Part shown: in pieces, positions 3,454 to 18,714 of the stretch
Layout of the letters: every line of letters starts with the position of its first letter
Numbering within the stretch: position 1 is the first letter of the stretch
From: Burkholderiales bacterium
GTDB taxonomy: Bacteria; Pseudomonadota; Gammaproteobacteria; Burkholderiales; UBA11063
Direction: 5' to 3'
Length of the DNA: 41,283 bases
Assembly: GCA_019748155.1 (NCBI GenBank)
Contig: JAIEPY010000069.1
Location: forward strand, 1 to 41,283
Made by a program: the position numbers and the translations under genes
Notes under the pieces: model-generated
What the model was told of the DNA's origin: nothing
The model's input: the letters and a program-made list of their open reading frames with translations, nothing else
Database searches by the model: none

Positions 3454-4692
3454 ATGAAAATATTCCACACTTCAGATTGGCACTTGGGACGCACTTTATA
3501 CGCTAAAAAACGCTATGTTGAATTTGAAGCTTTTCTCAATTGGTTAATCGAACAAATTCAACTTAAATCACCAGACTTACTGATAGTAGCTGGTGATATT
3601 TTTGATACTACCACACCAAGCAATAAAGCACAGGAACTCTATTATCAATTCTTGTGTAAAGTAGCGGCTAATACTGCTTGCCGCCACATGGTAATTGTTG
3701 GCGGAAATCATGATTCACCAAGCTTGCTAAATGCACCTAAACAACTCCTCAAGCAGCTTAAAATTCATGTCGTGGGTAATATCAGCCCGGATTATCGTGA
3801 TGATGTACTGGAATTAAAAGACCTAAACGGTATAACTCAGGCATTAGTTTGTGCTATCCCATATCTACGCGATCGTGATATTCGGATTCTTGAGGAATAT
3901 GAGTTAGCCGAAGATAAAGATAAAAACTTCATGCAGGCAATTCAAGATTATTATGCTAAAGTTTGTGAACATGCGGAGGTATTGCGTCAACAGTTAGAAC
4001 ATCCAGTACCAATTATTGCCACCGGACATTTATTTGTTACAGGTGGCAAAACTCTCAAGGATGACGGGGTGCGTGAATTATATGTCGGTTCTTTGGCACA
4101 GTTTGCTGCCAATGATTTTCCGCCTAATATTGATTATCTGGCACTAGGGCATTTACATGTTCCGCAGATAGTTGCCAGTAAAGATAATTACCGCTATAGT
4201 GGTTCACCACTAGCAATGGGCTTTGGTGAAGCTCGCCAGCAAAAGATAATTATTGAAGCTGATGTTAATGTGGGAAATGTAACTATCACGGAAATAGCAA
4301 TTCCAAAATTTCAATCTCTGGAACGTGTCGCTGGTGATTTGAATACGATTAAGCTAGCACTGACGAATTTAGTTAATCGTGATGAATCAATTTGGGTTGA
4401 GGTTGATTATACTGGGCAAGAAATCGTTACTAATTTGCAGCAAGAATTACAAACTGTCGTAATAAACACACAAGTTGAATTAATCAAAATCCATAATAGC
4501 CAGTTATTAGCGCAAGTCTTATCCTCTGCTGAATATGATGCTGGGATTGAATTAGCTAACTTGAATCCAGAACAAGTATTTGATAAATGTTTAACTATGA
4601 ATAATATTCCAGCTAAGCAGCAAGAGGAACTAAAAGAGTGCTTTGCCCAAATCATGCAAGATTTAGCGACTCATGATGTGAGGGCAGAATAA
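3454..4692 (+). CDS. sbcD: SbcD nuclease subunit of the SbcCD complex
   Basis: Mre11-family metallophosphoesterase that, with SbcC, cuts DNA hairpins and protein-blocked ends during repair and replication. The metal-binding motifs are present in order: DWHLGR (Asp8, His10), GDIFD (Asp48), GGNHD (Asn85-His86-Asp87), a GHLF histidine near 190 and a LGHLH motif near 230. At 412 aa it is a normal length for the family, with the C-terminal cap domain that binds the SbcC coiled-coil base. Its TAA shares its last base with the ATG of sbcC (TAATG), so the two are translationally coupled. The region upstream has an extended -10 box but only a weak ribosome binding site. Identification is firm. Confidence 0.96.
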   Translation: MKIFHTSDWHLGRTLYAKKRYVEFEAFLNWLIEQIQLKSPDLLIVAGDIFDTTTPSNKAQELYYQFLCKVAANTACRHMVIVGGNHDSPSLLNAPKQLLKQLKIHVVGNISPDYRDDVLELKDLNGITQALVCAIPYLRDRDIRILEEYELAEDKDKNFMQAIQDYYAKVCEHAEVLRQQLEHPVPIIATGHLFVTGGKTLKDDGVRELYVGSLAQFAANDFPPNIDYLALGHLHVPQIVASKDNYRYSGSPLAMGFGEARQQKIIIEADVNVGNVTITEIAIPKFQSLERVAGDLNTIKLALTNLVNRDESIWVEVDYTGQEIVTNLQQELQTVVINTQVELIKIHNSQLLAQVLSSAEYDAGIELANLNPEQVFDKCLTMNNIPAKQQEELKECFAQIMQDLATHDVRAE

Positions 4693-7600: not shown

Positions 7601-8366
7601 ACAGCAAGCGATTGAACTAGCCAGTCGCCTAAAACAAACTAGCGAAGCTTTGGCAAATGAACAGGCTAAACAATTAACCGATAAAGCACATGACGAGCTG
7701 CAAACTGAGATTGACAATATCCAAACTAACTATGAACACTCTAATCAACGTATCGGCGAAATTCGTGGGCAACTAAGCGCCAATCAACAAGCCCAAGAGC
7801 AGCAACAAGACACTTTAGCGCTGCGCGATAAACAGCTTATAATTACCGAGCGCTATCGCCGACTCCATGTCTTAATTGGCTCTAGTGATGGTAAGAAATT
7901 CCGTAACTTTGCGCAGGGTTTAACTTTTGATCTAGTGGTGAAACATGCCAATCAACAACTCCACCAGATGTCAGATCGTTATTTACTTATCCGCGATAAT
8001 GATGCACCACTTGAACTAAACGTAATCGATAACTATCAAGGTGGCGAAATCCGCACCACCAAAAACCTCTCCGGTGGTGAAAGCTTTGTGATCAGCCTGG
8101 CACTGGCTCTGGGATTATCCAAACTATCCAGTAATAAAGTTCAGGTTGATTCGTTATTCCTTGACGAAGGCTTTGGTACTCTCGATGAGGACTCGCTACA
8201 AACCGCACTTGATGCACTCGATAGCCTACAGCGTGATGGCAAACTGATCGGGGTGATCTCACATGTCGGCGCGCTCAAAGAGCAGATTAATTTGCAGATT
8301 CAGGTTGAAGCATTGAGTGGTGGCGTGAGTAAGATTAGCGGTATTGGCTGTAGTAGGAAAGACTAA
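4692..8366 (+). CDS. sbcC: SbcC SMC-like ATPase subunit of the SbcCD complex
   Basis: Rad50/SMC-type ATPase that powers and regulates the SbcD nuclease. Walker A is GPTGAGKST at residues 37-45. The protein then has long Gln-rich coiled-coil arms on either side of a zinc hook, CPLC (Cys601, Cys604), exactly at the midpoint, where two SbcC molecules dimerise. The C-terminal lobe has the ABC signature LSGGES (1126-1131) and Walker B ending in LDE (Asp1158, Glu1159). The 1224-aa length is slightly above the E. coli protein (about 1050) because of longer arms. It overlaps sbcD by one base. All catalytic elements are intact. This gene marks the left border of the accessory island. Confidence 0.96.
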   Translation: MKILKLHFKNLNSLVGEWTIDFTDAEYSEQGIFAITGPTGAGKSTILDAICLALYGRTPRLERINASQNEIMSRQCGECFASLEFQTSSGTYRTLWSQARARKKADGNLQNAQHIIEDCVNNKTLEDKLSKTPQAVTEVTGMDFEHFTRAMLLAQGGFAKFLQSSADERSPILEKITGTEIYSQISKLVHERKTSEENVLNNINARLAGINLLNSQEIDGLQAELAELTQQITTLITNKSTLEQQQTWLINLQKLGNELIVIQQAQQQLQIQQEQFAADELRLKDAKLVEEINSDIYIQLQELRKQLTTIKANLSANQEQLPKLQELLTTQQTQVSQVHSELLSYKTNYALNLKILQQVRLLDAEILTKQDGLAKATTKLNTSRSELDKLLTEQQGFAKQQINQQQQQVQIDNYLTEHHADATLLGAYSGICAELDNLLTLDSKLKGNQIEQISTQDKHDKLIELITEQESTQTKYSTQQGELNSQITQLQQTIQQLANGKNVAMLKDEILQLNSQHTDYQELARQLQEKANLALKLQQVRTELTNERQSSTEIKPQLERDNELLGYTTQLLDNLTAQKLLQSKIISLSDERANLQANQPCPLCGGLDHPYAQDGVAVNNELDTQIAQAKTKIGQLQATLNTLNTQLATNNANIAKLSEQQNELISRQELLQQSITNLVGKYGLTISQISDTFIHGQLSAIAEQINQLNQQIKTLQDCEQQLADYQAKLQELEKSLHEIKLNFARLTEQKFASEKHLAELAHEINQSSGEYDKLSNVLMTRLTSYQVPIITSATIPAIKDNLAKRRDAWQNTEQQANTLKQELQKLAHQLEQNSSLQIALNRQITEQQHEVSTLQQSVNELTTNRSTLFGDKNTDAAETQWQQELQALEEKAKAAETEFNQLSQQQTALIALIEKDRAQLQTLQTTQTQLETQFIARLNLVNIASEAEFIAKRLSRDEMMAIGQTADNLKQQAIELASRLKQTSEALANEQAKQLTDKAHDELQTEIDNIQTNYEHSNQRIGEIRGQLSANQQAQEQQQDTLALRDKQLIITERYRRLHVLIGSSDGKKFRNFAQGLTFDLVVKHANQQLHQMSDRYLLIRDNDAPLELNVIDNYQGGEIRTTKNLSGGESFVISLALALGLSKLSSNKVQVDSLFLDEGFGTLDEDSLQTALDALDSLQRDGKLIGVISHVGALKEQINLQIQVEALSGGVSKISGIGCSRKD

Positions 8367-8377
8367 TTGATGCATGT

Positions 8378-8391
8378 ATAGATATGTCTAT
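8378..8391. promoter_or_regulatory. Inverted repeat upstream of the Fic gene
   Basis: ATAGA-TATG-TCTAT is a perfect 5-base inverted repeat with a 4-base centre, in the 87-base gap between sbcC and the Fic gene. It could be an operator, but five-base arms in AT-rich DNA occur by chance. Confidence 0.2.
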
Positions 8392-8453
8392 GAACGTATT
8401 TATGGTGTGCTAAAATTGCAATATCTGCAAAGGGGTGGTATTATTTTTTTGTC

Positions 8454-9275
8454 GTGATTATTAATACCCCAAAATCATTTTATAAAATTGAACCATCGGA
8501 TAATATAAAAATGCAAATACAAACAATAGCGTTAATTAAGCAAATTGATGCCAGAAAAGTGGCGTTAGATAATAAGCGCCCATTTAATAATGAACAGTTA
8601 TCCAGAATCAAAAGAATTTTTGATGTTGATTTAACTTATAATTCTAACGCAATTGAAGGTTCTACTATGACCTTTAATGAGACCAAGTTAGTTATAAATG
8701 AAGGATTAACCATCGGTGGTAAAAAATTAAATGAGCATCTGGAAATTATCAACCATAAATATGCGATAGATTTTATTGAAGAATTAAGTAAAAATCAAGT
8801 GATTACTCTGCGGGATATTAAAGATATTCACGGGTTAGTCTTACGTGGCATTGATGATAAATACGCGGGTAAATTTCGCGATACCTTAGTTGGCGTACGC
8901 TTAAGCAATGGTCAAATTAGGAATTTTACGGATCCATTATTGCTTGATGAGGCAATGAATAAATTTATTATAAATTTGAATAATACTCAGGAGCATCCAT
9001 TAATTAAAGCAGCACAAGCTCATTATGATTTTGTCACGATTCACCCATTCATTGATGGAAATGGACGAACTGCAAGGCTACTGATGAATTTAATTTTATT
9101 ACAACATGGCTACCCACCAGCAATTATTCGCATAGCTAACCGCGCTAATTATATTCTAGCTTTAGAATCTGCACAAAATGGCGGTGAATTGGATGGGTTT
9201 TATCAAGTAGTTATTGAAGCTGTTGCCGAGAGTATTGAGAGTTATTTGATTATGTTAGCTCAGGAAGTTAAATAA
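8454..9275 (+). CDS. Fic family protein, probable AMP-transferase (class II)
   Basis: Fic enzymes usually transfer AMP from ATP to a hydroxyl on a target protein. The active-site motif HPFIDGNGRTAR is complete at residues 197-208, including catalytic His197 and the phosphate-binding GNGR. An inhibitory helix motif (S/T)xxxE(G/N) is present as SNAIEG at 64-69, ahead of the Fic fold, which makes this a class II, self-inhibited Fic protein. The 273-aa length fits single-domain members; no C-terminal wHTH follows. The GTG start is the only one giving the usual N-terminal extension; a GGGG-containing stretch lies about 15 bases upstream, which is far, and the ATG at 8511 is an alternative. Fic genes are common passengers of type I restriction loci, in keeping with the hsdR relic at 17028. 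The target is unknown. Confidence 0.85.
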   Translation: MIINTPKSFYKIEPSDNIKMQIQTIALIKQIDARKVALDNKRPFNNEQLSRIKRIFDVDLTYNSNAIEGSTMTFNETKLVINEGLTIGGKKLNEHLEIINHKYAIDFIEELSKNQVITLRDIKDIHGLVLRGIDDKYAGKFRDTLVGVRLSNGQIRNFTDPLLLDEAMNKFIINLNNTQEHPLIKAAQAHYDFVTIHPFIDGNGRTARLLMNLILLQHGYPPAIIRIANRANYILALESAQNGGELDGFYQVVIEAVAESIESYLIMLAQEVK

Positions 9276-9356
9276 TCTAAATTAGAGCGTAAAAACTGGT
9301 ACAACTTTATAAAAATTATCCTCAGAATTTAAACAGTATAATAAGGTCGTATATAA

Positions 9357-9656
9357 ATGGGTGTTCAAATTAAAAATCATGCAAAAGAATATTTGTCTGA
9401 GTTTTCTCAGAACCAAAAATTATGGTACAGGTATCTGATTACAGAAGCAATAAATACAAATGGCAATATTTCTGATGAAGTAATGGCAAAAATTTATATC
9501 TGTTTAAAAGGTGACTTAAATATAGAACGATTCATTTCAACTATTCATCCACGTGATAACTTAGATAATATTAGTGAAAAAGTAAAATTACGAATATATA
9601 ATGATCTAATAGAAGCAAAACATCTTACTTTAAAAGAAATTTTTGAGAGTAAATAA
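9357..9656 (+). CDS. Small protein preceding the STAND NTPase
   Basis: A 99-aa, mostly helical, charged protein with no signal peptide or membrane segment. The N-terminal half (WYRYLITEAINTNGNISDE followed by an hxxIYxxLKG pattern) resembles a short helical module I associate with the N-termini of some large AAA-type ATPases; that is from memory and weak. AAGG lies ten bases before the ATG and a TATAAT lies at 9337-9342. The gene ends at 9656 and the STAND gene begins at once (a TTG at 9658, or overlapping at 9643), so the two are coupled. It could be a free accessory subunit of the STAND protein, or the detached N-terminus of an originally longer protein, since the frames differ by one base. 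Strongly AT-rich, like the next two genes. Confidence 0.7.
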   Translation: MGVQIKNHAKEYLSEFSQNQKLWYRYLITEAINTNGNISDEVMAKIYICLKGDLNIERFISTIHPRDNLDNISEKVKLRIYNDLIEAKHLTLKEIFESK

Positions 9657-9657
9657 C

Positions 9658-12600
9658 TTGTTTAGTAGAAATTTTTTTGTAAGAAATTATAATAAAGCCA
9701 AATCATTAGCTGGTAATAGATTCACACCAGAGCTACATGTTGAGTTACCGATTTCCAATATTTTTGACTATTTAGTCAGACATCAAAGATGTTATACAGC
9801 TCTCAGAAAAATTTATGGTATTATCCATAAAAAGAGTCAATACTTAACCTCTAATGTTGTAAATGACCAAGATAGTAGCCTTAAGAATTTTTATACAAAC
9901 TCTAAAACTCTTAATGATGTGTTAAATCATATCCGAGAATATAATACTAATAGTATTGATTGGATCAAAATAAATGAATTGTCAGAAAATCTTATTGATA
10001 TATCCTATGGCTTGATAAATGCTGTCAATGGGTCTCCATCTTCATATATCAAGACGAGAGAACATGATAGTAGATCAACAACAGACAGAACTAATTATGT
10101 TATACATGATTTTCACGAATATATCAAAAATATTAGAAAAATACATGATTTATCTCAAGATACTGAAGCCCAAATATTTAATAGTCCATATCTATTACTG
10201 ACTGGAGATGCTGGCATCGGTAAAACACACCTACTATGCGACTTAGCAGGTAGATTAATTAATGAGAATGAAGATAAAATAACACCGTGTATCATTTGTT
10301 TTGGTGAACAATTTAATGATGCGGAAAATTTTTGGGAAACTCTTTTTAAATTTTTAGAAGTAACAACAACTAAAAATGCATTTCTATCTGAATTAAATAC
10401 ATTAGCAGAACAAAATAATCAAAGAGCACTAATCATTATTGATGCACTAAATGAAAATGTACTCTCATCACCTAATTATTGGAAAACAAACCTACTTCAG
10501 ATTTTAGAAGATGTGAAACAGTATCCAAATATTGCGCTAATAGTGAGTATTCGTTCTGGATTTGAGAAGATTGTGTTAGATAATGAGATTACGTCTTCGT
10601 TTTCGATAGTTCAGCACGATGGTTTTGCTTCACAAGAGTGGGAAGCTTTAACAAAATTTTTTCTCCAAAAAAATTTACCACTACCTGAGGTGCCACTATT
10701 AACTCATGAATTTAGCAATCCTTTATTTTTAAAATTATTTTGCCAAGCATTTGATAATCCATCAAGAACAAAGAAAGGGCAGGAGTTTTTCAAAGGGCAT
10801 ATCGGTGCAACAACTATTTTTGAGAATTATGTTGATACCGTGGCATATGTATTAGAGGATAGGTTTAATATAAGTCATCTAAAAAATAAAAATATATGGG
10901 ATACTGTAATTGAAAACATTGCTAAAGAAATGTCCTTAAATTATAGTGATAGAATACCACTTGACAAACTTATCGAGATAGTCAAAAATAATCATCCTAG
11001 CGTTGATCATGCTAAGTTAATTGAGTCTTTAGAACAAGCTATGTTAATAAGTAAAATTCCAAATTATAGTAGCAATGAATCTAATTTGAACTTTGAAATC
11101 AGGTTCCCATTCCAAAAGTTTAGTGATTTCTTAATTTCTAGATACATCTTTAAGAAATTACACTCAGAAATTGAAGGTAGAATTACTTTTGATGTAGCAA
11201 AAGAGTACTTCTGTATAACAGACGGCATTTTTGATGTTATTCTTAAGAAAAATTATAATTTAGGATTAATTGAAGCATTGTCAATAGCTCTCCCTGAACA
11301 TACAAGAGGTGATATTGAATTAATTGGATTATTTGATGTTTATGCACAACATTCTGGTTTTAAGAGTCATTTCCTTGAAGCATTTATTCAAAGTATAATA
11401 TGGCGATCAACAAGTGGATTTAATGACGATTTACCAAAAATAATTAGCACAATAAATAATTACATCGTTAACGATGATGGCTTACATACAAAATTTATAG
11501 ATGCACTATTAGCCGTTTCATCGGTTTCTGACCACCCATTTAATGCTGAATTTTTACATAGTCATCTAAATCAGTATTCAATGGCTGAAAGGGATGCTTG
11601 GTGGTCAACTTTCTTACATTATACTTATAATGAAAATAAGTCTGTTGATAGATTATTAAAATGGGGTATATCTAATTCAACAAAATCACTAATAAATGAT
11701 TCAACATTATTGTTAACTGGTATAACTTTAGTGTGGTTCCTAACATCATCAAACAGATTTATAAGGGATAAGGCAACAAAATGCTTGGTCAATATTTTTA
11801 CTAGTCGTTTAATTATCTTAAAAGATTTATTAGTTAAATTTGAGAATGTAAATGATATTTATGTATTAGAACGCATCTATGCCGCTGCTTATGGATGCAT
11901 CATGTTGAGTAATCAAAGTAGTTGTAAAATCGATGATGTACGAAACTTAGTCGACTATATTTGTGATTATTTCTATGTGAAAAATAACCTGCCAGTTCAT
12001 CTACTATTACGTGATTATATAAGAGGAATTGTTGAGTTATCTGTAAAAAAATTTAATTTATGCATAAATACGAAATTTACAATTCCTCCGTATAGTTCTA
12101 TGCTTGATTTAAATGTGCCAAGTGCTGAGACAATAAAAAAACAATACTATGATGACAAAGATAGTGGTTATACTCAGATAGTTTCATCTGTCATGTACAA
12201 CTTAGGATTCTTGGCTGATTTTGGAAATTACGTTATTAACTCTAAGTTAAGGTATTGGAGTTCTGGTAAGATTCAAGATAAAGAAATTAATAGAATATTT
12301 ATCTTCGAAATTTTTATTAAGAACTTGAGTAGTTATCAAAAACAATTGTGGAGTAATTTAATTAATTATATCAATAGCTCACGTGCGTATGATTCTGAAA
12401 TGCTTCATACTATATTGTATTCTAATGAAGCAAATGTTGCGAACATCAATATTTCATTTGATCATAACGTTGATGAAAGAAGCGCTAAGTTATTAAATTT
12501 TAAAAAATCATTATTGTTAGAGCAGCAAATATATTACGTCATAGAAGTTGAACCGTACCTAAATTATAAGTATGAAGTTACACAACCTAAAAATGAATTT

Positions 12601-13770
12601 GATACTGGTTTAGCACAAAGATGGATTTTTACGAGAGTTTTGAGTTTAGGTTTTGACCCTAATATCCATAGTTATTTTGATGAAGTAGTAAGTAGAAATA
12701 GTCATAGAACAGAGCATAAAGCTGAAAGAATTGGTGAAAAATATCAGTGGATTGCTCTACATGAGTTCTTAGCATTTGTTTCGGACAATTATAGACCTAT
12801 TATAGAATCATGGGATAATGATAATAAACAATATCAAGGATCATGGGATCCATTTATTAGAGACATTGATCCATCATTTTTATTACAATGCGATAGTTTA
12901 AAAAGCAATGACTTACCTTTAAAACAATGGCGGAGAAATTTGTTATCTTATGATGCATGGGGCAACCAAGTATCTATAGCTGAGTGGGTAACTACTTTGG
13001 ATGACATACCTAAGTTAGTTGATTTAGTTAACATATTGGATGACAATAATAGTGAGTGGATTTTGTTAGACGGTAGTTTCAAATGGGATGATCACAAAGA
13101 TCCTGCTTTTGAAAAATACGACATCGGGTATAGAAGTTTATGGATCATGATAACAAGTTTAATTGTCAAAAAATCTGAGTATAGATTAATTGTAGACGAT
13201 TTGAAACAAAGAGATTTGTATAATATTAATATTGACTTTGTAAATCGTGTTTATGAAACGTTTCTTGGTGAATATCACAACTCATCTGCTTTTGAATGTA
13301 AATATGGCGAAGACTTATGGCAAGAGTTTTCAATATCTGGCAATAAAACTATTGATGTTCTTCCAACATTTCAATATTATTTGAATGAGTTTACTCTAGA
13401 TTGTTCAGTTGATGATGTATCATCAATAAAAATAAAATTACTGTGTAAGGAAATAGTAGATGATTTAAATCTTCATCATACCAATTTAGATGGTAAATTT
13501 TATGATGTAGATGGAGCTTTAGTTGGCGTATATCAGCCAATATTTGAAGAATCACAATTTGAGACTTTACTAATAAAAAAGGAAACCCTCACTAAGTTTT
13601 TAGAGTGTCATGACTATTCAATATTGTGGATATCTAAATTAGAAAAAAATGTTGTTGAACGCATGAGTTTGAGCACATATTGTGATTTCGGAGGTTTATT
13701 ATTTTATAATGAACAAAATAATTTAGATATGCATATTGTTAAATCTAATAGTAATAGTTTTATTACGTGA
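9658..13770 (+). CDS. Avs-like antiviral STAND NTPase
   Basis: About 1370 aa. Residue numbers count from the TTG at 9658, which has GAGAG eight bases upstream; an in-frame TTG at 9643 would add five residues. Near the N-terminus a TPELHVELPI segment (about 24-33) matches a stretch I know from Avs-type ATPases. Walker A is GDAGIGKT (183-190), Walker B is LIIIDALNE (Asp262, Glu266), followed by a SIRSGFE sensor motif and a SNPLFLKLFC segment typical of STAND NTPases of antiviral (AVAST) type. The remaining ~800 residues should be the helical sensor region; no motif is recognised there. No nuclease, TIR, SIR2 or protease domain is visible before the NTPase. AGA arginine codons and very low GC set it apart from sbcC. 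Its stop lies six bases before the next ATG. Confidence 0.8.
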   Translation: MFSRNFFVRNYNKAKSLAGNRFTPELHVELPISNIFDYLVRHQRCYTALRKIYGIIHKKSQYLTSNVVNDQDSSLKNFYTNSKTLNDVLNHIREYNTNSIDWIKINELSENLIDISYGLINAVNGSPSSYIKTREHDSRSTTDRTNYVIHDFHEYIKNIRKIHDLSQDTEAQIFNSPYLLLTGDAGIGKTHLLCDLAGRLINENEDKITPCIICFGEQFNDAENFWETLFKFLEVTTTKNAFLSELNTLAEQNNQRALIIIDALNENVLSSPNYWKTNLLQILEDVKQYPNIALIVSIRSGFEKIVLDNEITSSFSIVQHDGFASQEWEALTKFFLQKNLPLPEVPLLTHEFSNPLFLKLFCQAFDNPSRTKKGQEFFKGHIGATTIFENYVDTVAYVLEDRFNISHLKNKNIWDTVIENIAKEMSLNYSDRIPLDKLIEIVKNNHPSVDHAKLIESLEQAMLISKIPNYSSNESNLNFEIRFPFQKFSDFLISRYIFKKLHSEIEGRITFDVAKEYFCITDGIFDVILKKNYNLGLIEALSIALPEHTRGDIELIGLFDVYAQHSGFKSHFLEAFIQSIIWRSTSGFNDDLPKIISTINNYIVNDDGLHTKFIDALLAVSSVSDHPFNAEFLHSHLNQYSMAERDAWWSTFLHYTYNENKSVDRLLKWGISNSTKSLINDSTLLLTGITLVWFLTSSNRFIRDKATKCLVNIFTSRLIILKDLLVKFENVNDIYVLERIYAAAYGCIMLSNQSSCKIDDVRNLVDYICDYFYVKNNLPVHLLLRDYIRGIVELSVKKFNLCINTKFTIPPYSSMLDLNVPSAETIKKQYYDDKDSGYTQIVSSVMYNLGFLADFGNYVINSKLRYWSSGKIQDKEINRIFIFEIFIKNLSSYQKQLWSNLINYINSSRAYDSEMLHTILYSNEANVANINISFDHNVDERSAKLLNFKKSLLLEQQIYYVIEVEPYLNYKYEVTQPKNEFDTGLAQRWIFTRVLSLGFDPNIHSYFDEVVSRNSHRTEHKAERIGEKYQWIALHEFLAFVSDNYRPIIESWDNDNKQYQGSWDPFIRDIDPSFLLQCDSLKSNDLPLKQWRRNLLSYDAWGNQVSIAEWVTTLDDIPKLVDLVNILDDNNSEWILLDGSFKWDDHKDPAFEKYDIGYRSLWIMITSLIVKKSEYRLIVDDLKQRDLYNINIDFVNRVYETFLGEYHNSSAFECKYGEDLWQEFSISGNKTIDVLPTFQYYLNEFTLDCSVDDVSSIKIKLLCKEIVDDLNLHHTNLDGKFYDVDGALVGVYQPIFEESQFETLLIKKETLTKFLECHDYSILWISKLEKNVVERMSLSTYCDFGGLLFYNEQNNLDMHIVKSNSNSFIT

Positions 13771-13776
13771 GTTCAC

Positions 13777-14415
13777 ATGAGTAAATCAATGAATACAATT
13801 ATTATTTCAATATTAGCATCAATATTAACTACAATTGTGGGACTTAATATTCAGATAGTAGAATCAAATTATAAAATAGCGCAAGATGCAGCTGATTCAA
13901 TATTTAATAAGCGGATTGAATTAGTTTCAGATGTGAAAAAACTTGAAATGCAAAGTTTTTGGTTTGACCAATTACATACTGATAATATGGTAGATGGTGA
14001 TGTATTAAATAATATAAATTTTAGTCATAAAGTACCAGAATCAGTGGTTAATGAACTAAGGTGGTACGAGGTAGAGAGACTTTTTTTATTTAATAAAATA
14101 TCTCTTAATTATGGTGAGAGTGTTAATACGTTAATAGATGTATATAACAGTGCTGATAGTAGGATTTTTATAGGTCCAGCTCATTTATGGCGACTCCGTG
14201 TTGAAATGATGAAATCGATAAATCAGAATCCTGTTAAATATAGTATTTGGTTTGATTTATTTTGGCACTTTAAATTAATAATTTTTATTACATTGATTGG
14301 GGTTATTGTCTATTTTTATATTGCCAAAAGAAAACAACAAATTGAACGTGAGAAATATTTACATATTTTAGATCAGCATGTTTTAATGATATCTAATTAT
14401 GCAGAGACTGAGTAA
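13777..14415 (+). CDS. Two-TM membrane protein coupled to the STAND NTPase
   Basis: A 212-aa protein of no recognised family. A hydrophobic helix spans about residues 6-25 and a second, stronger one about 166-187 (HFKLIIFITLIGVIVYFYIA), followed by a basic, positive-inside stretch KRKQQ. The ~140 residues between are hydrophilic and helical, with several Trp and Phe, and would lie on the periplasmic side if both ends are cytoplasmic. The start lies six bases after the STAND stop, and GTGAG within the preceding codons can serve as ribosome binding site, so the genes are co-translated. Membrane proteins are known effectors in several phage-defence systems; that this one is the effector is inference from position. 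Its base composition matches the STAND gene. Confidence 0.75.
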   Translation: MSKSMNTIIISILASILTTIVGLNIQIVESNYKIAQDAADSIFNKRIELVSDVKKLEMQSFWFDQLHTDNMVDGDVLNNINFSHKVPESVVNELRWYEVERLFLFNKISLNYGESVNTLIDVYNSADSRIFIGPAHLWRLRVEMMKSINQNPVKYSIWFDLFWHFKLIIFITLIGVIVYFYIAKRKQQIEREKYLHILDQHVLMISNYAETE

Positions 14416-14426
14416 CTAACCATGGC

Positions 14427-14455
14427 ATCGAACAAATACAGAAAATTATCGCTAT
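14427..14455 (+). pseudogene. 5' relic of an AlbA_2-type gene
   Basis: These 29 bases match 26 of 29 bases at 17227-17255, the first codons of the second AlbA_2 gene. In the corresponding frame both read IEQIQ(K/Q)II. After about 15 codons the similarity is lost. The preceding ATG at 14422 is not in that frame. It is either the leftover start of a lost paralogue or a recombination scar. Confidence 0.5.
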
Positions 14456-14533
14456 CAACAAAAAGCTAATTAATTACGCATACGGAAAATAAGCATGGAA
14501 AACCAATTCATAACAAACCACAGAGGCTTTTTA

Positions 14534-15928
14534 ATGACTAACTCTCACGAATCACAAAATACAGAGTTTAAATCCTCATGGCAAGATGATTATCTCAAAT
14601 GGATTTGTGGCTTTGCCAATGCCATTGGAGGAATCATCTATATTGGCAAAGATGATAATGGTGAGGTTGTTGGATTAGCTGATTATGCCAAGTTAATGGA
14701 AGATTTGCCGAATAAAATCCGTAATGCGATGGGCATAATTTGTGATGTTCAGCTTCATGATGAAAATGGCAAGAAATTCATTTCTATCCGAGTTAATCCA
14801 TATTCAGTACCAGTTTCTTTGCGTGGAAGGTTTTATTATCGCTCAGGTAGTGCCAAGATGGAACTTACCGGAGTTGAACTCAATGAGTTTTTGATAAAAA
14901 AAGCCGGGAAAACTTGGGATGATATGATCGAAGATAATGCAACCGTTGCTGATATTGATGAGAACAGTATTACCAAATTTATTGCAGATAGTCAAGGACA
15001 TGGTCGCTTGCCTGAAACTGCTGGTTTAAGTGTATTTCAAATTCTGGAAAAATTAAAACTTACGGATGGTAATAAGCTCAAACGTGCTGCAATTATCATG
15101 TTTGGCAAAGACCCGCTGAAATTTTATCCCAATATACAGGTCAAAATTGGACGTTTTGGTGTTGATGCCGCTGATTTACGTTTTCAGGAAGTTGTTGAAG
15201 GTAATTTGGTTCATATGCTGCATGAAGTGCAAGTACAGCTTAATTATAAATTTTTGACTCGGCCTGTCACTTTTGAGGGTTTTCAACGCAAAGAAAATGA
15301 CATTTACCCAATTGCAGCGCTACGAGAAATATTACTTAATGCCTTGGTACATCGTACTTATATGGGGGCAACTATTCAGATGCGCGTATATGATGATCAT
15401 CTTACTCTTTGGAATGAAGGTTCTTTACCATATGGTCTAAGTCTTGAAGATCTCAAAAAAGAGCACAGTTCGCGCCCGCGTAACCCTGTACTAGCCAACG
15501 CCTGCTTTCTAGGTGGGTATATTGACTCGTGGGGGCGTGGTACTTTAAAAGTAATTAATTCGTGCAAAGAAGCAGGCTTAAAGGAACCAGAAATAATTGA
15601 AAAAAATGGCGGTATTGCCATAACCTTATTTGCACAAAATTATTCTGATAGACAAATTCACGAAATAACAAAAACGTCGGGGAAAACGTCGGGGAAAACG
15701 TCGGGGAAAACGTCGGGGAAAACGTCGGGGAAAACGTCGGGGAAAACGTCGGGGAAAATACTTGATGCAATGCGTTCAAATCCACAGATTACTATTCCAG
15801 AACTTGCACAATTGTGTGGTATTACAACTCGTTCGATAGAAAGAAATATTGAGTCACTCAAAAAATTAAAACTATTACAGCGTATTGGTTCAGCAAAAGA
15901 TGGCTATTGGGAGGTGAGTGTTGATTAA
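14534..15928 (+). CDS. Schlafen AlbA_2-domain ATP-binding regulator with TSGK repeats
   Basis: 464 aa from the ATG at 14534, chosen because AGAGG lies seven bases upstream; an in-frame ATG at 14495 would add 13 residues but has a poor site. An AlbA_2/Schlafen-like domain is at the N-terminus (ESQNTEFKSSW, then FANAIGGIIYIGKDDNG). A GHKL-like ATPase half follows (REILLNALVHR near 265, then GRGT near 335). Seven TSGK tetrapeptides (381-408) form a linker to a C-terminal winged helix (PELAQLCGITTRSIERNI). Such proteins are annotated as putative DNA-binding transcriptional regulators and often travel with restriction-modification or toxin genes. rhuM starts 45 bases downstream on the same strand. 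The natural target is unknown. A second, distant homologue lies at 17221. Confidence 0.85.
   Translation: MTNSHESQNTEFKSSWQDDYLKWICGFANAIGGIIYIGKDDNGEVVGLADYAKLMEDLPNKIRNAMGIICDVQLHDENGKKFISIRVNPYSVPVSLRGRFYYRSGSAKMELTGVELNEFLIKKAGKTWDDMIEDNATVADIDENSITKFIADSQGHGRLPETAGLSVFQILEKLKLTDGNKLKRAAIIMFGKDPLKFYPNIQVKIGRFGVDAADLRFQEVVEGNLVHMLHEVQVQLNYKFLTRPVTFEGFQRKENDIYPIAALREILLNALVHRTYMGATIQMRVYDDHLTLWNEGSLPYGLSLEDLKKEHSSRPRNPVLANACFLGGYIDSWGRGTLKVINSCKEAGLKEPEIIEKNGGIAITLFAQNYSDRQIHEITKTSGKTSGKTSGKTSGKTSGKTSGKTSGKILDAMRSNPQITIPELAQLCGITTRSIERNIESLKKLKLLQRIGSAKDGYWEVSVD
15674..15757 (+). repeat. 7 x 12-base tandem repeat (TSGK codons)
   Basis: ACGTCGGGGAAA is repeated seven times without a mismatch inside the AlbA_2 gene, encoding TSGK x7 between ATPase and winged helix. 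The period is a multiple of three, so copy-number change keeps the frame. The repeat also leaves long open frames on the opposite strand, which are artefacts. Confidence 0.97.
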
Positions 15929-15973
15929 ATGCGTTACTATTACTCGAAAATCTTGTGAGGTATTGATTTAGAT

Positions 15974-16993
15974 ATGAACAAACAACTTAGCATAAAAGAT
16001 GAGCTGACAGATTTTCTGCTCTATACTTCACCCAATGGAAAAGTAAAGATCGAAGTAATCCTAAATGAAGAAACGGTTTGGCTCACGCAAAAAGCTATCG
16101 CGGCTTTGTTTGGGGTAAAAGTACCAGCGATCAGCAAACATTTGAAGAGTATTTTTGAAAGTGGCGAATTGCTAGAAAGTGCAGTTATTTCCATTTTGGA
16201 AACAACTGCAGATGATGGCAAAAATTATCAGGTACAATATTACAACCTCGATGCCATAATCTCGGTCGGCTATCGAGTTAATAGCCATCAAGCAACTCAA
16301 TTTCGTATTTGGGCGACTAACAGCCTAAAAGAATACATTATTAAAGGCTTTATTCTGGACGATGAGCGCCTGAAAAATGGTCGCTATTTTGATAAAGATT
16401 ATTTTCGTGAGCTGTTGGAGCGTGTTCGCTCAATTCGTGCCAGTGAGCGCAGAATTTATCAGCAAATCACTGATATTTTTGCTGAATGCAGCATTGACTA
16501 TGACTCCAAATCTGATCTTACTCAAGAGTTTTATGCGTCAGTACAAAACAAATTTCATTTTGCCATACATGGACAAACCGCAGCTGAAATTGTTTTTAAA
16601 AACGCCGATGCCAATAAAGAGTTTATGGGCTTGCAAACATGGAAAAATGCACCCAACGGCAGAATTTTAAAATCGGACAGTAAAATTGCAAAAAACTATC
16701 TTAGTGAACAGGAAATAAAAAGCCTGGAGCGAGCCGTAGGTGGATTTTTCGATTACATTGAGCGGATTATTGAAAATAGGAACACCTTTACTATGGAGCA
16801 ATTTGCTTTAAGCGTAAATAAATTTTTAGAATTTAATGAGTACAAGGTTCTGGGTGGTAAAGGAATAATTTCAGCAAAACAGGCTGAAGAAAAAGCCGTT
16901 AGCGAATATGAGAAATTTAATAAAACTCAAAAAATTGAGTCAGATTTTGATTCTGCGGTTAAAATGCTGCAAAAGAAAAATAAGCTAAATTAG
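15974..16993 (+). CDS. rhuM: RhuM family protein
   Basis: 339 aa, full length for the family named after RhuM of Salmonella pathogenicity island 3. The N-terminal part has the typical NEETVWLTQKAIAALFGVK segment, a predicted helix-turn-helix, then HLKSIFESGEL and QYYNLDAIISVGYRVNS, all hallmarks. The middle has KEYIIKGFILDDERLKNG and the C-terminal half is a Fic/DOC-related fold (FHFAIHGQTAAEIV, then NAPNGRILKSD). Biochemical function is not established; genes of this family commonly sit inside type I restriction-modification loci, often next to hsdR, and an hsdR-like relic does follow here at 17028. The start has GAGG somewhat far upstream (14 bases). Intact and probably expressed. Confidence 0.9.
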   Translation: MNKQLSIKDELTDFLLYTSPNGKVKIEVILNEETVWLTQKAIAALFGVKVPAISKHLKSIFESGELLESAVISILETTADDGKNYQVQYYNLDAIISVGYRVNSHQATQFRIWATNSLKEYIIKGFILDDERLKNGRYFDKDYFRELLERVRSIRASERRIYQQITDIFAECSIDYDSKSDLTQEFYASVQNKFHFAIHGQTAAEIVFKNADANKEFMGLQTWKNAPNGRILKSDSKIAKNYLSEQEIKSLERAVGGFFDYIERIIENRNTFTMEQFALSVNKFLEFNEYKVLGGKGIISAKQAEEKAVSEYEKFNKTQKIESDFDSAVKMLQKKNKLN

Positions 16994-17027
16994 TGGTGTT
17001 CGCAAATCTAAATAGTGAAAGTTTGGT

Positions 17028-17174
17028 ATGAAATTTACTGAAGCAAAAATAAAGCAAGTGTTTGTCGAATTACTTGACGAGTATGGGTACCCACCCGTTG
17101 AAAGAACTGCGGTTTATGTTGAAATTTTTGAGCAAGCCGAGAATTTCAAAAAAAATCAAAGTGAGCATGTGTGA
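17028..17174 (+). pseudogene. hsdR: hsdR collapsed by internal deletion (N- and C-terminal ends joined)
   Basis: A 48-codon ORF. The first residues MKFTEAKIKQVFVELL match the usual start of type I restriction subunit HsdR (MKFTEAxLE...ELL). From LLDEYGYPP through IFEQAENFKK it instead matches the far C-terminus of HsdR proteins, which typically have an LLxxYGYPP helix and end with a VxEQAE helix. The roughly 700-1000 residues normally between, with the nuclease and helicase motors, are missing. The two similar stretches (ELLxxxGYP near both ends) would allow a deletion to fuse them in frame. I infer a dead restriction gene. It follows rhuM by 34 bases, the usual type I order. No hsdM or hsdS is present in the window. 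Confidence 0.6.
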
Positions 17175-17220
17175 AATCTAATGAAAACATATATTAGAGA
17201 TAAATTAAAGAAATAAACTC

Positions 17221-18714
17221 ATGAATATCGAACAAATACAACAAATTATCGTTATTGGCGAAAACACCAGCATTGAATTTAAAGAATGTAAAACCGCTCT
17301 TAACAAAGATGTCTATGAGACGGTTTGTGCATTTCTCAATCGCTCTGGCGGTGAAATCTTGTTGGGTGTAACTGATAATGGCGAAATAGTTGGGATTAGT
17401 CCTGAGAGAATAGAGCAGATTCAAAAAGAGTTTGTTACCACCATCAATAACGCCAATAAGTTAGTACCACCAACATATTTAACCATTGAGCAAGTTGCGA
17501 TAGATGGGCGAGCAATCCTATATATTTATGTGCCACCTAGTTCGCAAGTTCATCGAGTTAATAATCGGATTTTTGACCGTAATCATGATGCTGATCTTGA
17601 TATTACCGACAATACTAGCTTAGTTAGTCAGCTCTATACTCGTAAACAAAACACCTATACCGAAAATCGGGTTTATCCATTTGTAAGCTTAGAAAACCAT
17701 CTGCGCAGTGATTTAATTGCCAAAGCACGCCGTTTGGCTGGGGTGTTTAACAATAATCATCCGTGGTTAAATTTAACTGATATGGAACTATTGCAAAGTA
17801 TGCAATTATATCAGCATGATGTAATCAGCAATCAATCTGGATTTACTTTGGCTGCGATTCTATTATTTGGTACCGATAGCACTATTTTATCAGCGCTACC
17901 ACATCATAAGACTGATGCCATTTTACGCCGTGTAAATTTAGAGCGTTATGATGACCGCGACACCGTTAAGACGAACTTAATTGAGAGTTATGAGCGCTTA
18001 ATGGCATTTATTGCCAAGCATTTACCTGATCCATTCTATCAGGATGAATCTGCCAATCGGATTAGTTTGCGTGATAAAATTTTTCGTGAAGTAGTAGCAA
18101 ATATCTTAATTCATCGTGAGTATTCAAGTCCATACCCAGCTAAGATAATTATTGAACGTAATCAGGTGGTTGCTGAAAACAGCAATCGTCCGCATTTTCA
18201 TGGCGTGATTAACCTGGCTAACTTTTCTCCTTTTCCTAAAAATCCAATTATTTCAGCATTTTTTCGTGAAATTGGGCGTGCTGAAGAGTTGGGCTCGGGA
18301 GTGCGCAACTTATTCCGCTACACCAAGATTTATTCTGCTGGCATTGAGCCACAGCTAATCGAAGATAATATTTTCAAGATAATTATTCCACTTGATGAGC
18401 GATTGTTTATGGATGGGGAGTTAATTACCGCGCAAGCTACCGCGCAAGCTACCGCGCAAGCTACCGCGCAAGCTGAAGATGAATATTTAGCGCAAATTTT
18501 GCTGTTTTGCCATACTCCAAAAACTCGTGATGAGATTCAGGAGCATATCAAGATTGCTCATCGCGAGTACTTTAGGAAATATATTTTACAACCGTTATTA
18601 CTAAGTGGCAAGCTTTTACTCTCGATTCCAGATAAGCCGACCAGTCCCAAACAAAGATATTATACTAACCCACGATGCTTAACTAATCATATATCAAAAA
18701 AGGTTACTAACTAA
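17221..18714 (+). CDS. Schlafen AlbA_2-domain ATP-binding regulator with TAQA repeats
   Basis: 497 aa. The N-terminal AlbA_2 domain has ENTSIEFKE, then FLNRSGGEILLGVTDNGEIVG (residues ~13-60). The ATPase-like part carries REVVANILIHREYSSP (about 290) and GRAEELGSGVRNLF (about 355-370). Residues 403-418 are four TAQA tetrapeptides, followed by a C-terminal helical winged-helix-like region (TPKTRDEIQEHIKIAHREYFRKYI). The overall design equals that of the 14534 gene, but the sequences are distant, so these are separate acquisitions or old paralogues. The stop codon directly abuts the ATG of the glycosyltransferase. There is no strong ribosome binding site; AAAGAAAT precedes the start. Role unknown, probably regulatory. 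Confidence 0.85.
   Translation: MNIEQIQQIIVIGENTSIEFKECKTALNKDVYETVCAFLNRSGGEILLGVTDNGEIVGISPERIEQIQKEFVTTINNANKLVPPTYLTIEQVAIDGRAILYIYVPPSSQVHRVNNRIFDRNHDADLDITDNTSLVSQLYTRKQNTYTENRVYPFVSLENHLRSDLIAKARRLAGVFNNNHPWLNLTDMELLQSMQLYQHDVISNQSGFTLAAILLFGTDSTILSALPHHKTDAILRRVNLERYDDRDTVKTNLIESYERLMAFIAKHLPDPFYQDESANRISLRDKIFREVVANILIHREYSSPYPAKIIIERNQVVAENSNRPHFHGVINLANFSPFPKNPIISAFFREIGRAEELGSGVRNLFRYTKIYSAGIEPQLIEDNIFKIIIPLDERLFMDGELITAQATAQATAQATAQAEDEYLAQILLFCHTPKTRDEIQEHIKIAHREYFRKYILQPLLLSGKLLLSIPDKPTSPKQRYYTNPRCLTNHISKKVTN
18427..18474 (+). repeat. 4 x 12-base tandem repeat (TAQA codons)
   Basis: ACCGCGCAAGCT occurs four times exactly, encoding TAQA x4 at the ATPase/winged-helix junction of the second AlbA_2 protein: same place, same period and different sequence from the repeat at 15674. 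Confidence 0.97.

Follow-up and report, generated by a model that had tools for sequence, protein, structure and literature searches.

The window analysed in this work, a contig of 41,283 nt from a Burkholderiales bacterium (JAIEPY010000069.1), contains a very short ORF whose two ends recall those of HsdR, which raises the question of whether it is what is left of a type I restriction gene or a small gene in its own right. The 48-codon ORF reported by the initial annotation was confirmed in coordinates and frame: it starts with the ATG at 17028, encodes 48 aa and ends with a TGA at 17174, and in-frame stops are found directly 5' of it. It begins 34 nt past the stop of rhuM, which had indeed been described as its immediate upstream neighbor, and ends 46 nt ahead of alba2, the second AlbA_2 gene. 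We consider, with a probability of roughly nine in ten, that an internal deletion in a type I restriction gene left this ORF (mini-hsdR) as a scar, most likely a functionless pseudogene. The assembly (G000) consists of 136 contigs with an estimated completeness of 99.99%, and the window corresponds to its complete contig C119. The features discussed are listed in Table 1.

Table 1. Features of the window, with the matching positions in the related locus L096 (genome G002) where available.
Feature	Position (nt)	Strand	Evidence
Variable cargo slot between sbcC and glycosyltransferase gene	8361..18712	.	homology to G022 ends at 8360, starts again at 18713
Fic protein	8454..9275	+	PDC-S04; 84% aa identity over 221 aa to gene downstream of G002 hsdR
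alba1, AlbA_2/HATPase_c_4 protein	14495..15928	+	89% aa identity to gene upstream of hsdR in G002 operon
rhuM, 339-aa open frame	15974..16993	+	PF13310; PADLOC PDC-S05
5' part: 11 nt before ATG and first hsdR codons (= L096 7883-7943)	17017..17077	+	blastn, 80% over 61 nt, E 2.95e-9
mini-hsdR, 48 codons, hsdR start and end fused in frame	17028..17174	+	Pfam, blastn, N-terminus placement
Junction, 8-nt overlap of both matches at LL(D/E) codons, possible microhomology	17070..17077	+	blastn
3' part of hsdR (= L096 10978-11068)	17070..17160	+	blastn, 79% over 91 nt, E 9e-16
alba2, second AlbA_2 protein, downstream of scar	17221..18714	+	no specific counterpart in G002 operon

The C-terminal part of mini-hsdR matches the Pfam profile T1RH-like_C (E 1.3e-6; 28.4 bits against a gathering score of 26.8), that is, the C-terminal domain of HsdR, which we take to be the one formerly named DUF3387 in Pfam. 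The match covers positions 292-328 of the 329 of the profile, its end only and not the whole domain, and in the whole-genome search it reached 24.1 bits, below the cut-off. A sub-threshold match to Pfam WIYLD (E 0.028) was also obtained, and the 48 aa gave no match in NCBIfam and nothing useful among PDB sequences (best E 1.8). The HSDR_N nuclease domain (PF04313) was not matched at E<=1, only the first ~16 residues being left, and Pfam found none of the SWI2/SNF2-type motor domains that the full homologue has.

This full homologue, an hsdR beside the same neighbors as had been suggested to be sought in related strains, is present in G002, a genome of the same genus. Its contig of 11,787 nt (C77; L096, of which L056, record JAIETT010000285.1, is a duplicate) carries hsdM, a YhcG-type nuclease gene, hsdS, an AAA_13 gene, an AlbA_2 gene, a rhuM fragment, hsdR and fic, the latter truncated by the contig end, and the operon has matches to PF02384 and PF01420. 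The estimated contamination of G002 is 6%, and the 86% DNA identity across the alba1 region argues for kinship of the two loci despite this figure. The HsdR of G002 has 1062 aa and five Pfam matches, from HSDR_N through T1RH-like_C, in contrast to the 48 aa of the window, where hsdM and hsdS are absent; however, start and end sequence, frame, the neighbors alba1 and fic and a trace of rhuM just upstream are alike. Both halves of mini-hsdR match this one gene significantly at the DNA level while its interior is missing, and the offsets of the two matches differ by 3,042 nt, or 1,014 codons, which subtracted from 1062 leaves exactly 48. These overlapping matches to an intact hsdR next to the same genes support the proposed internal deletion joining the two ends, as well as the assignment of the end of the ORF to the HsdR C-terminus, already indicated by Pfam.

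The N-terminal part of mini-hsdR alone is weak as a protein (E 0.036 when the G002 HsdR was compared with the window by tblastn), so that its assignment to the HsdR N-terminus relies on the DNA match together with the placement of its residues in full-length HsdRs. For the latter, 60 genes were found, five of which were excluded for having no start fitting the rule. In 50 of the 55 proteins used, the best ungapped placement of residues 1-13 is at the N-terminus; the exceptions are L076, offset by 7 residues, and L063, L065, L080 and L087, which were given an internal Met by the start rule. These residues share on average 6.9 identities with HsdR N-termini versus 1.1 with the HsdR stretch before the C-terminal part. 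The Pfam match spans residues 6-42, and a C-terminal origin of residues 6-14 was overruled by the DNA match and the placement.

The join falls at residues 15-17, inside the LLxxxGYPx stretch. The 27-nt blocks encoding LLxxxGYPx near both ends of hsdR share a mean of 13.3 identities in 49 full-length genes (50 were extracted and L076 was omitted for its start; L056 was omitted as the duplicate of L096), as compared with 7.7 (SD 2.4) for random end pairs of such blocks. In L096 the two blocks agree at 15 positions, and 20 of the 3,960 codon pairs score higher, which places this pair 21st; the repeat is therefore weak, and better ones exist. A microhomology of up to 8 nt is possible; the L096 copies are identical at 6 of the 8 positions, an agreement seen in 1.3% of random pairs and in 12 of these 49 genes. 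The position of the junction is thus in favor of the deletion between similar LLxxxGYP stretches that the initial annotation had suggested, and the repeat actually used is inferred. We propose that an ancestral operon with hsdM, hsdS, an AlbA_2 gene, rhuM and hsdR suffered a deletion of ~3,042 bp within these weakly similar stretches near the hsdR ends, by which codon ~16 was joined in frame to the last ~33 codons. The comparison with L096 shows both the deletion and the join, and a single event, by microhomology or slippage, may have produced them. The product lacks the nuclease and motor domains and almost the whole C-terminal domain, and judging from this domain content it should be unable to restrict; the ORF would most likely be drifting as a functionless pseudogene.

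As for the other type I genes, neither hsdM nor hsdS nor yhcG of the G002 operon matched the window by tblastn at E<=1, and its AAA_13 gene had one chance-level match only (E 0.21), outside the island; no type I operon, understood as hsdM and hsdS together with hsdR, is found in the window. Since both genes are gone from the locus, mini-hsdR has no docking partner of its own system. Other HsdM, HsdS and HsdR homologues do exist in the same genome, where they had been proposed to be looked for, the nearest HsdM being just 47% identical and the nearest other HsdR 32%; therefore, no copy of the same subtype was found in this genome. A second HsdR C-terminal stub, of 39 aa and of another subtype, was noticed in it as well (L002 1480-1599, minus strand, contig G000:C129). 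While the nuclease has been lost, the frames of alba1, rhuM and fic are open, in agreement with the view that passengers of the locus persisted, presumably because AlbA_2, RhuM and Fic proteins act alone as defence or toxin genes.

The association of rhuM and alba1 with hsdR was evaluated among the 80 listed of 507 relatives, which comprise 66 loci with a long hsdR, 7 cut by a contig edge and 7 classed as short closed frames, one of which (L049) is actually a frame of 1073 codons. In 13 of the 66 long-hsdR loci, 47 of which have at least 2.2 kb of upstream sequence, rhuM is located <=3 kb upstream of hsdR; in eight of these 13 it is <=70 nt from the hsdR open frame, and the remnant in G002 counts among the 13. 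A gene that can be aligned to alba1 over more than 100 aa was found in the same 3 kb upstream of hsdR in 13 of the 66 loci as well, with identities from 23% to 89%. Companionship with hsdR is therefore recurrent, not general. In G002, rhuM is itself a scar of ~33 codons (L096 7783-7885) between the AlbA_2 gene and the full hsdR, on the two sides of which the window is longer by 188 and 774 nt, as obtained by subtraction from the blastn matches. Opposite losses thus took place in the two genomes, from seemingly one ancestral order, with rhuM scarred in G002 and hsdR scarred in the window.

The island as a whole occupies a variable slot. The nearest genome by flanks is G022, with 96% identity in the glycosyltransferase and 79% in SbcC, and its slot (L114 6062-9525) is filled by a 928-aa ORF with weak ATPase-type PADLOC matches (best Ppl, E 7e-20) and a 105-aa ORF. 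In the stretches from G002 and G016, homology to the window likewise begins at 18712-18713. The cargo of the window consists of fic, a 99-aa ORF, an Avs2 homologue (PADLOC E 0), a 212-aa ORF, alba1, rhuM, the scar and alba2. The place of fic in the gene order differs from that in G002, and for Avs2, the 99-aa and 212-aa ORFs and alba2 no specific counterpart exists across the 11.8 kb of the G002 operon. The proposal that the island is a type I R-M locus consequently holds in part: the slot carries mixed cargo, of which alba1, rhuM and the scar, and probably fic, derive from a type I operon. The old age suggested for the locus was not supported. The match of the Avs2 homologue (9357-13770; 1375 aa, TTG start) to its best Avs2 profile begins at position 169 of 1504, indicating that the N-terminal part of the profile is missing; the 99-aa ORF shares 14 nt with the start of this homologue, matches the N-terminus of PADLOC PDC-S06 (E 3.7e-12) and has an Imm25 match below the cut-off (E 1.1e-4).

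A separate conserved family of 48-aa proteins, the observation named by the initial annotation as contrary to its reading, was sought in the genus, in the listed relatives and in 100 genomes, and was not found. No mini-hsdR was found in the remaining 22 genomes of the genus, of which several are incomplete, and their three matches are all in frames of 1048-1063 codons. Among the 80 listed relatives, seven of which are the edge-cut loci with an unjudged frame, only L018 (217-411 of the Prevotellaceae MAG contig JAISXV010000190.1) shares the architecture, an HsdR N-terminus (E 3.4e-4) joined straight to the C-terminus (E 2.6e-19); however, its breakpoints are different, after QNEG and before RDDIKSAL, and it has a TAG stop at the join. 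The remaining short closed frames, L044, L051, L066, L088 and L095, have no HsdR N-terminal match before the tail. In the 100 genomes, 40 T1RH-like_C matches extend to model position 320, and five of them, mini-hsdR included, belong to frames of <=140 aa. The other four (G000:C129, G084:C17, G031:C2 and G024:C5) also end in the HsdR C-terminus, but unlike mini-hsdR they have no HsdR N-terminal match ahead of it when searched with four N-termini at E<=1; in this search scattered chance-level matches (E>=0.03) appeared elsewhere, and L018 served as positive control with the N-terminal E value given above. When the 48 aa were used as query, matches to the C-terminal part were obtained in plasmids (13 records), phages (2 records) and viral contigs (5 loci), and none of those listed extends to query residues 1-4.

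Most of the C-terminal part of mini-hsdR is still conserved, yet its residues 27-28 are Thr-Ala, where 46 of 46 full-length HsdRs have Asp-Glu (50 genes were extracted, four being left out for block length). In the same set, the mean pN of the C-terminal part against the full genes is 0.096, as compared with 0.060 among full genes, with only 2 of the 46 as high; for the N-terminal part three of the 46 are as high, one of them mis-started. As pS is near saturation and 144 nt are short for a selection test, the two changed residues and the elevated pN are only suggestive of relaxed constraint. The frame was preserved across the deletion, for which the chance is 1 in 3, with no later stop or frameshift, and a functional ORF would look alike.

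Three other explanations can be considered. If only the 3' end of hsdR had survived and the first 14 codons were a chance start, the span of the Pfam match and the poor tblastn score of the N-terminal part would be accounted for, but the DNA match of this part, which includes 11 nt upstream of the ATG, and its preference for the HsdR N-terminus in 50 of 55 proteins make this explanation next to negligible; an ORF containing nothing other than the HsdR C-terminus is ruled out by the two-part DNA match and the placement. An assembly artefact, in which a collapsed or mis-joined contig would conceal a full hsdR, could be invoked for a genome split in so many contigs. Nevertheless, the join is codon-exact, at a shared 8-mer within a 41 kb contig, and no hsdR interior of this subtype occurs elsewhere in an assembly that is almost complete by the tool's figure, hence we regard such an error as highly improbable.

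It is also conceivable that mini-hsdR has been maintained as a small protein, with the two HsdR ends forming a peptide that docks on other type I methylases or acts on phage infection. The open frame retains both natural ends, homologues of HsdM, HsdS and HsdR are available in the genome, short HsdR C-terminal frames recur, and a Synechococcus gene consisting of DUF3387 only belongs to a two-gene operon whose disruption alters cyanophage yield (PMC5490813). This gene may be taken as a distant precedent for a retained peptide, the open frame being the sole support here. However, no mini version was seen in the 22 other, partly incomplete, genomes of the genus, two residues invariant in all HsdRs compared are altered, the four other short frames showed no match to the HsdR start before the tail, and hsdM and hsdS of its own system have been lost, all of which makes a maintained protein very unlikely. 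Equally doubtful is the broader idea that HsdR ends have been repeatedly trimmed to tiny stand-alone peptides with a kept job, of which the 48-aa ORF would be the version with both termini; if true, this job could be, for instance, to compete with HsdR for methylase docking or to alter phage replication.

As the scar of a deleted hsdR, mini-hsdR is an ordinary product of gene decay that would leave the general understanding unchanged, and it illustrates that short HsdR-like annotations can be scars, not genes. The window is a clean case of R-M operon decay around companion genes, with a mirror-image loss in G002. RhuM and Doc have been described to occur with R-M genes (PMC3710099), and the R-M neighborhoods with PrrC/RloC-like, RhuM and Fic/Doc defence proteins resemble the window in having RhuM and Fic genes with hsdR; in contrast to them, the window has lost the R-M core while the companion genes stay. 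Type I loci in which a second defence system is embedded are also described (PMC12629846), and the mirror-image loss fits the view that embedded genes can persist without the host R-M system. A natural partial loss of hsdR likewise occurs in a Zymomonas plasmid, which unlike the window retains hsdMS (PMC8088579). No natural hsdR with its N- and C-terminal ends joined was found in the published titles and abstract openings searched, a coverage that excludes preprints and most subscription journals; two H. pylori papers contain the words hsdR, internal deletion and remnant.

Some minor observations concern other HsdR tails and the AlbA_2 genes. The viral contigs L100 and L101 have in common, at 4001-4060, the final ~20 codons of hsdR, from the same subtype as mini-hsdR, adjoining an ORF that resembles a DNA methylase by eye; no further hsdR sequence was found in the L100/L101 stretch searched, and this is perhaps a prophage junction at the hsdR 3' end, in which case HsdR tails might mark integration sites. 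In L104 (2085-2477, minus strand), a 130-aa ORF apparently has an HsdR tail, weakly matched (E 0.004), fused to unrelated sequence. Finally, both AlbA_2 genes of the window contain perfect 12-nt in-frame repeats, with 7.3 copies at 15671-15758 and 4.1 copies at 18426-18474, and the translation of alba1 in G002 has fewer KTSG units, therefore the length of the AlbA_2 linker varies.
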